From assembly GCA_025054955.1 (NCBI GenBank), contig JANWZE010000085.1, forward strand, positions 1 to 54,445: 54,445 nucleotides of DNA. The letters are read 5' to 3'. This document shows, piece by piece, positions 36,794 to 38,947 of the stretch. The position numbers and the translations under genes were made by a program. The notes under the pieces were generated by a model. It had not been told where the DNA came from. It saw only the letters and a list, made by a program, of their open reading frames with translations, and did not search any database. This stretch comes from Blastocatellia bacterium (lineage in GTDB: Bacteria > Acidobacteriota > Blastocatellia > HR10 > J050). Each line of letters opens with the position of its first letter. Within the stretch, counting starts at the first letter, position 1.

Positions 36794-38947
36794 ATGCATA
36801 AGCCGATCAAGTATGTCGAAAAGGGATTGACCATAATGGCCAAGGGGGTGTGGTTTGTGTTTGAGCGACTGAATCGCATCAATCAGAATCCATCGTTCAC
36901 CCCCAAATGGTCTGACAAACCCTTGTTGAAGTCGTATCAGAAAGTGAAGCCGCCATTGGGATGGCCACGAACGACCGATTCGCTCTGTCCAAAGTGCGTG
37001 CCGGAGATTCGTGAAAAAATTCTCAATGGCGCGCTGCCGGTTGACATCTTGCGCCATGAACGGGTGGGCGAAATCAAGGCGCAGATCATCGAACGCGATG
37101 GCAAAATCCTGATGGTCAAGGATTGTCCCATTCATGGTCACTTTGAAGATGTCATGTCAATTGACCCGGCGTTCTTCAAGCACCTCGAAGAATCATTTCC
37201 TGGCAGCGACATCGTCGCTCACAACGATGAGAGGTTGCACAATCATGGCAGCAGCACGATCAAGTATGGTCGCGGCGCTGTGCTGACCATTGACCTGACC
37301 AATCGCTGCAACATGATGTGCGACCCGTGCTTCATGGATGCCAATCAAGTTGGTTTCGTCCATGAGCTGAGCTGGGAAGACATCAAGACGTTACTCGATA
37401 ACGCCATCTCGCTCAAGCCGCGCCGTCAGTTGTCGGTGCAGTTTTCCGGTGGCGAGCCGACGCTGTCGCCTTACTTCCTCGATGCCATCCGCTACGCGCG
37501 CAAAGTTGGTTACAACAGTGTGCAAGCGGCGACCAACGGCATCGAATTTGCCAAGAGCCCTGAGTTTGCTCGCGCCGCCGCCGAAGCTGGGTTACGCTTT
37601 GCCTACTTGCAATTCGATGGCATTGGCAATGCGGCCAACCAGCATCGTCGCGTCGGCAATCTGTTCGATGTGAAGTTACGCGCCATTGAAAACATGCACA
37701 ACGCTGGCATCGAAATTGTGCCAGTGACCACCATTGTCAATGGCATCAACAACGAGCAGGTCGGGCGGATCATTCAATTTGCGCTGGACAATCCGCGTAA
37801 GATTGCCTTCCTCGCGTTTCAGCCTGTTTCATTCACAGGACGTGATGAGGCGATCACGGATGAGCGGCGGCAAGCGCAACGTTACACGCTGTCGCATCTG
37901 GCGCATGATGTGAAAAAGCAGACCGGGCTGGGCGAGCCAACGCGCGACTGGTTCCCGATTTCGTTCATCAGTCCGTTCTCGGACTGGGCTGATCTGGTCA
38001 AAGGGCCGAATCAAGACTGGGGCTCGTTCAAGTGCGGCTGCCATCCCAACTGCGGCGTCGGCATGGCCGTGATGGTGGATAAAGAGACAAAAGAGGCTGT
38101 GCCGGTCACAGCGTTTCTCGACGCGTTGCCGTTGGCCAAGGACGTAGCGTCCATCAATGACGCCGCCCGGGGCAAATGGCTCTCCATCATCGGCATGGCG
38201 TTGGCGCTGATGAAAAACTACGATCCGTTCAAATCGCCAACCCATTTCCGTTTGATTGATCTGCTGAAGAAGTTTGACAAAACTTGGGGAGCGACCGGCC
38301 GCGACTACGGCAAGGTCGGAGCAGACCGGACGATGGCCGACATCCAAAAGCGACGGCAGGATCGTTGGAATTTCCTCTTCATCGCCGGGATGTGGTTCCA
38401 AGACCTGTTTAACTACGACTTCCGCCGGACTGAACGTTGCATCATCCCCTATGCAACGCAAGAGGGCGAAATTTCCTTCTGCGCCTACAATACCGGCATC
38501 GGTTGGCGCAACATCGTCGAAAAGATGCACATGACGGCGACGCTGAGCAAGTGGTACCAGGAGCATGGCCGACATGAAATCTTTGCCGGCGGCAAGAACG
38601 TTGCGCTTAACAGCACCGAGCATTCGTTGCTGCTGCGTGAAGAGATCATCACCAAGGACGTGCAGCACGATCTGGATCGGTTGGGTGTTGCCAAGAATGC
38701 GCGCGAAGAGCAGATGAAGGCCCGCGCCGAACGCAAACGCCGCGAAGAGGAGAATGCGCGCATGGCGAAGCTCTATCGGCAGATCGTTTTGAATGAGCCG
38801 GCAGAACCGGAGCCGACGCTCGTTCAGCTTCGCGTTGGCAATGGGCGCGCTAACGGTCAGCAGGCGGCTGTGACTCCCGCTTCGTTGACGCCGGCAAAGC
38901 AGGAGAGCGCAGCCCATCAGCAGGCGGCTGCCGGCATTGGCGACTAG
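36794..38947 (+). CDS. Radical SAM protein of the tetraether-synthase (Tes, MJ0619-like) type
   Basis: 717-residue protein whose cysteine layout matches the Tes family. The N-terminal SLCPKC (Cys65, Cys68) is followed by KILMVKDCPIHGHFEDV (Cys111), the rubredoxin-like element. The radical SAM motif is LTNRCNMMCDPCFMDAN (Cys172, Cys176, Cys179) with FSGGEPTLSP. An auxiliary-cluster region is FKCGCHPNCGVG (Cys414, 416, 420). A last pair lies in TERCIIPYATQEGEISFCAYN (Cys549, Cys563). Family members in archaea join lipid tails by C-C coupling between methyl ends. Bacterial homologues have been proposed to make membrane-spanning iso-diabolic lipids. The last 100 residues are a charged helix and a low-complexity Ala/Gln tail, an addition to the core. 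Function on lipids is inference. Confidence 0.87.
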   Translation: MHKPIKYVEKGLTIMAKGVWFVFERLNRINQNPSFTPKWSDKPLLKSYQKVKPPLGWPRTTDSLCPKCVPEIREKILNGALPVDILRHERVGEIKAQIIERDGKILMVKDCPIHGHFEDVMSIDPAFFKHLEESFPGSDIVAHNDERLHNHGSSTIKYGRGAVLTIDLTNRCNMMCDPCFMDANQVGFVHELSWEDIKTLLDNAISLKPRRQLSVQFSGGEPTLSPYFLDAIRYARKVGYNSVQAATNGIEFAKSPEFARAAAEAGLRFAYLQFDGIGNAANQHRRVGNLFDVKLRAIENMHNAGIEIVPVTTIVNGINNEQVGRIIQFALDNPRKIAFLAFQPVSFTGRDEAITDERRQAQRYTLSHLAHDVKKQTGLGEPTRDWFPISFISPFSDWADLVKGPNQDWGSFKCGCHPNCGVGMAVMVDKETKEAVPVTAFLDALPLAKDVASINDAARGKWLSIIGMALALMKNYDPFKSPTHFRLIDLLKKFDKTWGATGRDYGKVGADRTMADIQKRRQDRWNFLFIAGMWFQDLFNYDFRRTERCIIPYATQEGEISFCAYNTGIGWRNIVEKMHMTATLSKWYQEHGRHEIFAGGKNVALNSTEHSLLLREEIITKDVQHDLDRLGVAKNAREEQMKARAERKRREEENARMAKLYRQIVLNEPAEPEPTLVQLRVGNGRANGQQAAVTPASLTPAKQESAAHQQAAAGIGD

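Follow-up and report, generated by a model that had tools for sequence, protein, structure and literature searches.

Which enzyme joins acyl tails into iso-diabolic acid in Acidobacteriota? This acid and the brGDGTs thought to be derived from it underlie widely used palaeotemperature proxies, and we know of no enzyme for which the coupling has yet been shown in this phylum. The window analysed here, a stretch of 54,445 nucleotides from a Blastocatellia bacterium, carries a gene (tes in what follows) for a radical SAM protein that an earlier note had proposed both as a relative of the archaeal enzyme Tes and as a maker of iso-diabolic acid (Table 1). Our analysis leaves the protein a strong candidate for that role.

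Table 1. Features of the tes gene, its product and its neighbours, in window coordinates
Feature	Position	Strand	Basis or remark
Acyl-CoA/ACP synthetase–ACP–PlsC acyltransferase; ElbD domain order without FAR domain	32488..35049	+	Pfam
Radical SAM protein that accompanies tes at many loci of the class	35376..36425	+	Pfam, locus comparison
Ribosome site TAAGGAG (perfect AAGGAG), 8 nt before ATG	36779..36785	+	Sequence
Tes-like radical SAM protein, 717 aa, intact ORF	36794..38947	+	ORF translation, profile and structure matches
N-terminal helix, residues 4–29, mildly amphipathic, not in M. jannaschii Tes	36803..36880	+	AlphaFold2 model, hydrophobic moment
Rubredoxin-like site C65, C68, C111, H114 (Pfam PF23545)	36986..37135	+	Pfam, alignment
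Segment aligned to N-terminal [4Fe-4S] ligands of Tes; here DERLHNHGSSTIKY, without Cys	37226..37267	+	Alignment
Radical SAM CX3CX2C motif, C172, C176, C179	37307..37330	+	Pfam, alignment
CGCHPNC (C414, C416, C420)	38033..38053	+	Alignment
Met533, counterpart of the labile Met439 ligand in M. jannaschii Tes	38390..38392	+	Alignment
C549 and C563, C-terminal cluster ligands, with Y553 (M. jannaschii Tyr459) between	38438..38482	+	Alignment
C-terminal extension, residues 595–717	38576..38944	+	Model, alignment
Radical SAM protein, fold of cobalamin-dependent methylases	39135..40814	+	Profile match, structure model
Beta/gamma-crystallin or inhibitor I36-like protein, between radical SAM and FAR genes	40962..42185	+	
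HAD–fatty acyl reductase (NAD_binding_4 + Sterile)	42872..45235	+	Pfam
Thioester-reductase/NAD-epimerase family protein	45854..46990	+	Pfam; first plausible ATG 45854
PS_pyruv_trans-like protein, same operon	46900..48432	+	True start may be downstream
AMP-binding acyl-CoA ligase	48419..50110	+	
Enoyl-CoA hydratase family, last gene common to the Terriglobales cluster	51341..52246	+	

Fold and metal sites of the window protein

The best solved relative of the window protein by sequence is M. jannaschii Tes (MJ0619; PDB 7TOL, E 3e-65), to which it is 34% identical. The Tes equivalog is also its best NCBIfam model (NF045702; 318 bits, E 7e-95), at a score that does not reach the curated cut-off of 450 bits. 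An AlphaFold2 model built from 35 related sequences (mean pLDDT 83.6, pTM 0.85) placed the two structures of the same enzyme, 7TOM and 7TOL, at the top ranks of a Foldseek search. The model superposes on 7TOM with a Z-score of 42.0 over 480 residues and an rmsd of 2.7 Å (VIA-align), the next-best fold being that of MoaA (Z 20.8). As judged from this model, the window protein has the core fold of Tes, with a homology far beyond chance. Both the superposition, which had been proposed as a check, and the profile match bear out the earlier description of a Tes-like radical SAM protein.

MJ0619 has a rubredoxin-like site (C9/C12/C33/H36), an N-terminal [4Fe-4S] cluster (C73/C77/C80 and a His), the radical SAM CX3CX2C cluster and a C-terminal [4Fe-4S] cluster with the labile ligand Met439 (PMC9433317). 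We compared these sites in an alignment of 113 acidobacterial orthologue sequences (a few of them from the same genome via two collections), which also took in six paralogue or subclade sequences, three canonical Tes from the same order, five TrsS-like proteins and the M. jannaschii sequence. The rubredoxin-like ligands are retained (C65, C68 and C111 in 113/113, H114 in 112/113), and the radical SAM ligands C172, C176 and C179 are conserved across the clade. C420, which aligns with a ligand of the archaeal C-terminal cluster, is invariant in the 113 orthologue sequences together with C549, C563, M533 and Y553. The same holds for the SAM-site residues F180, Y271, D275, Q343, S346, T348 and R350; the only mapped SAM-site residue that is not kept is R210 of the archaeal enzyme, the aligned column of which is variable and adjoins the nearly invariant R285.

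The N-terminal [4Fe-4S] cluster is missing. None of its three Cys ligand columns holds a Cys in the 113 orthologue and six paralogue or subclade sequences (119 in all), the column of the fourth ligand is K or T in nearly all clade sequences, and an invariant HxHG(S/T)S loop stands in place of the ligands. We speculate that the loss of this surface cluster in a largely aerobic group is an adaptation to oxygen. At the other end of the protein, the alignment indicates that CGCHPNC and the C-terminal Cys pair, with Met533, make up one C-terminal cluster site and not two. Within CGCHPNC, C414 is invariant and specific to the clade, and C416 is common to bacterial canonical Tes. The protein is thus predicted to carry two [4Fe-4S] clusters and one mononuclear iron.

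These results change the earlier reading of the cysteines as the complete set of MJ0619 metal sites. Four Cys regions are indeed present in order (CPKC with C111, CX3CX2C, CGCHPNC and C549/C563), but they are not the four sites of MJ0619: three sites are complete, the C-terminal one had been counted twice and the N-terminal [4Fe-4S] cluster is absent. A lack of auxiliary cluster sites had been named in advance as evidence against the assignment; by alignment, the N-terminal cluster is lacking and the C-terminal one is not.

Outside the core, the N-terminal helix (hydrophobic moment 0.49, against a protein median of 0.21), a charged helix modelled at residues 636–664 and a disordered end from residue 675 are without counterpart in the Tes structure. 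The tail adds about 120 residues after the point where the match with archaeal Tes stops. The extra C-terminal tail claimed earlier is therefore real, with its charged helix, but we rejected the idea that it is peculiar to the window protein: it is clade-wide among orthologues of 672–762 aa, is conserved up to about residue 670 and includes the common segment LGIAKNAREE...MAKLYR. The ribosome site described as unusually strong is also found, immediately upstream of the gene (Table 1).

Family position and distribution

Two annotations point away from lipids. Besides Radical_SAM, Pfam matches a small N-terminal metal-binding domain named after HMPTM, and the second-best NCBIfam model is TrsS (NF045646). 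Both would suit the modification of a small molecule or peptide, in an HMPTM/pterin-methylase or TrsS-like role. However, the domain name is an older annotation of MJ0619, whose pterin role is uncorroborated and was judged incorrect from the structure (PMC9433317), and the neighbours of tes are lipid genes. Membership of TrsS was rejected on both score (212 bits against a cut-off of 490) and phylogeny, since a maximum-likelihood tree sets the TrsS-like proteins apart in a clade of their own, with full support (100/99). We consider a small-molecule or peptide substrate highly improbable.

The same tree groups the window clade (support 100/100; a ~52% paralogue and a ~58% subclade adjoin it) with canonical Tes and apart from the TrsS-like proteins. 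Canonical Tes was not recovered as one clade in this tree; M. jannaschii Tes alone forms a long branch outside bacterial canonical Tes and the window clade. Because this long branch is the single archaeal sequence, the branching order among the Tes types is unsure. Canonical Tes with all sites also occurs in the order of the window (L138–L140), one of these proteins (L138) scoring 584 bits on NF045702, above the cut-off, with 44% identity to M. jannaschii Tes. The isolate HRbin08 genome carries both canonical Tes and the divergent clade. The ~52% paralogue (L141–L143), known from one family of the class plus a few others, is also without the N-terminal cluster and reads CNCHPNCG where the window clade has CGCHPNCG.

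The clade is nearly universal in the class of the window and in Terriglobales, groups with isolates that make iso-diabolic acid. Strong matches occur in 54 of 58 genomes sampled from the class; the remaining four, one of them 97% complete, have weak or fragmentary matches only. Across a sample of the phylum, matches of E 1e-40 or better occur in 166 of 297 genomes, about 20 of which, by reading of the list, carry only the more distant, canonical-like type. All same-class genomes of this sample carry the clade, and likewise all f16 genomes listed. Named relatives with the clade belong to Acidobacteriaceae, Bryobacteraceae, Terriglobales and Blastocatellia.

The published lipid data agree with this distribution. 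Iso-diabolic acid occurs in acidobacterial SD1, 3, 4 and 6 (PMC13274423), the other subdivisions counting as negative; it is present in isolates of Chloracidobacterium (PMC12816986), of Edaphobacter, at 12–30% (PMC11354219), and of Pyrinomonas, in which membrane-spanning plus ether lipids exceed 40% (PMC4644332). No detectable iso-diabolic acid was reported for Solibacter usitatus (SD3) despite its Tes homologues (PMC10087280); other Bryobacteraceae, members of the same family, carry the window clade. A previous survey listed one 32% Tes homologue in Edaphobacter aggregans and homologues of 40–42% in Koribacter and Solibacter (Zeng 2022, PMC8941075). The low-identity group counted in earlier papers, as in E. 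aggregans, is very probably the window clade, and the top matches in Koribacter and Solibacter would be of the canonical type, to judge from the 44% identity of L138. Gene surveys can now separate the clade from canonical Tes, with which low-identity searches pool it.

The window protein might act on lipid chains by another radical reaction (a GMGT-like H bridge, ring closure or C–H functionalization), leaving iso-diabolic acid to Mss or canonical Tes. Other lipid radical SAM enzymes exist, such as Gms (PMC11186832), canonical Tes is also present in some genomes, and the lost auxiliary cluster together with the extra invariant Cys pair could mean a changed chemistry. Against this, the Acidipila rosea isolate has exactly one Tes-like gene, of the window clade, and a second strong Tes-like match is likewise absent from the window's own genome. 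Moreover, the C-terminal cluster, at which the coupling intermediate is proposed to be held, has all its ligands, and iso-diabolic acid as abundant and near-universal as it is in these groups needs a coupling enzyme. We therefore regard a different reaction as unlikely.

Lipid genes around tes

The genes for the fatty acyl reductase (FAR), the thioester reductase and the pyruvyl-like protein form a tight unit in Terriglobales, with the reductase gene downstream in 29 of 30 fetched loci. FAR is found in 8/297 genomes of the phylum sample and in 62/298 genomes of Terriglobales. In 12 of the 55 Terriglobales genomes with both, tes lies upstream of the FAR operon, on the same strand and within 12 kb, against 0.07 expected; the binomial probability is about 1e-23, or about 1e-10 by genus (at least 6 of ~22 genera), values that overstate independence because of kinship. 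Most FAR operons lie away from tes. Direct adjacency was rejected as a rule, since tes was present within the 1.5 kb examined in 1/30 FAR loci and only the wider linkage holds (a gap of 250 bp separates tes from FAR in one genome), and a fixed phylum-wide neighbourhood was rejected too, with few genes recurring around tes in 80 loci. One locus (L198) has, on one strand, the order tes–FAR–reductase–pyruvyl-like–ligase–hydratase–ligase–diacylglycerol kinase; this gene order recurs in the window, whose host belongs to another class, but for two additional genes that follow tes. Linkage to the FAR operon, together with the presence of the clade in acidobacterial groups that make iso-diabolic acid, upholds the proposed candidacy for iso-diabolic acid synthesis as far as lipid context goes.

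The presence of genes for a fatty acyl reductase and acyl ligases in one operon would also fit coupling that takes place only after ether formation, with the elb-like genes acting first and a tetraether or mixed ether/ester lipid, instead of iso-diabolic acid itself, as the product in vivo; Tes accepts both ester and ether lipids (PMC13274423). Because FAR is rare in the phylum sample and the Tes-like clade is common, however, coupling cannot generally require FAR, and we think such an order of events quite improbable.

Two further radical SAM genes flank tes. The upstream one directly precedes tes at ~15 loci of the class, with identities of 62–75%. The downstream one (L063) starts 187 bp after tes, and a Bryobacteraceae genome has a homologue of 65% identity at a distance of 3.5 kb from tes. 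The best structural match to the model of the L063 product is the cobalamin-dependent methylase MgmA (Z 23.3), with MiaB next (19.4), which suggests a candidate for the C5/C6 methylation of iso-diabolic lipids. For the crystallin-like gene that follows, no counterpart was found close to tes at any other examined locus. A 39-bp tandem repeat of 4.1 copies (45687–45845) separates the FAR gene from the reductase gene; the listed TTG start of the reductase at 45737 lies inside this repeat and is therefore false.

It is possible, if rather doubtful, that the whole forms a compact locus dedicated to iso-diabolic lipids that are ether-bound and possibly C-methylated. It would combine a Tes variant that couples tails without the N-terminal [4Fe-4S] cluster in aerobes with an ether operon of the elb type and, as candidate methylase, a radical SAM protein of the cobalamin type. 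If so, the missing iso-diabolic acid synthase of Acidobacteriota would be identified, and the locus would supply candidate genes for ether formation and methylation in brGDGT precursors.

Proposed reaction and known relatives

The window protein probably couples membrane-lipid tails as archaeal Tes does, yielding iso-diabolic chains. The same chemistry as in Tes would be expected because the C-terminal cluster and the SAM site are kept, and iso-branched bacterial lipids are the likely substrates because of the host taxa and the neighbouring genes. What follows about substrate, product and chemistry is inferred throughout. A 5'-deoxyadenosyl radical generated at the C172/C176/C179 cluster would abstract hydrogen from an iso-C15 acyl or alkyl chain at its terminal methyl group, and the resulting radical would be parked as a C–S bond on the C-terminal [4Fe-4S] cluster (C420/C549/C563, Met533), the cluster proposed in the Tes structure paper as the site of a carbon–sulphur intermediate (PMC9433317). 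A second SAM cleavage, acting on a second chain, would then allow an sp3–sp3 bond to form, giving iso-diabolic (13,16-dimethyloctacosanedioic) chains.

Compared with Tes/GDGT-MAS (MJ0619, 7TOL/7TOM), the window protein shares the core fold, the rubredoxin-like and radical SAM sites, the C-terminal [4Fe-4S] cluster with its Met and Tyr and most SAM-binding residues. It differs in its low identity, in having no N-terminal [4Fe-4S] ligands, in the extra C414/C416 and in its added N-terminal helix and C-terminal extension. We do not file it as Tes in the strict sense, because it lacks a defining metal site and falls below the curated cut-off; that it works like Tes is better supported than that it is Tes. 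The clade, well defined and with an exact metal-site difference from Tes, offers a single gene and protein as target. If it does couple chains, the N-terminal cluster is dispensable for sp3–sp3 coupling, which would inform the mechanism of Tes itself.

Bacterial Tes homologues have been proposed to act in the synthesis of brGDGTs and membrane-spanning lipids (Zeng 2022, PMC8941075; for Solibacter, PMC10087280). Mss, the demonstrated bacterial coupling enzyme (PMC11868695, PMC13274423), has homologues reported in some acidobacterial MAGs; the reaction proposed here is the same as that of Mss, an enzyme described as Tes-like in catalytic architecture (PMC13274423). In the literature searched, which left most subscription journals outside, we found neither the missing N-terminal cluster, nor the clade-specific Cys, nor the split from co-occurring canonical Tes, nor the FAR linkage.

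The other known system that the locus recalls is the elb ether-lipid operon of Myxococcus xanthus, for which a domain list including the ACS–ACP–acyltransferase order is available (PMC9131029). FAR, ACS, ACP, acyltransferase, HAD and NAD-epimerase domains are all present in the window locus. Compared by domain description, the two share HAD, FAR, the NAD epimerase, an unknown protein and the ACS–ACP–acyltransferase order; in the window, one fused protein carries HAD and FAR, and ACS–ACP–acyltransferase is encoded separately. Elsewhere in the window's own genome, on contig C25 (L195, 4566–7899), an ORF with two BcrAD_BadFG domains overlaps a DUF2229 ORF, a pair that resembles the domain set of the PlsA/Ger ester-to-ether reductase and may provide a possible second ether route in this genome.
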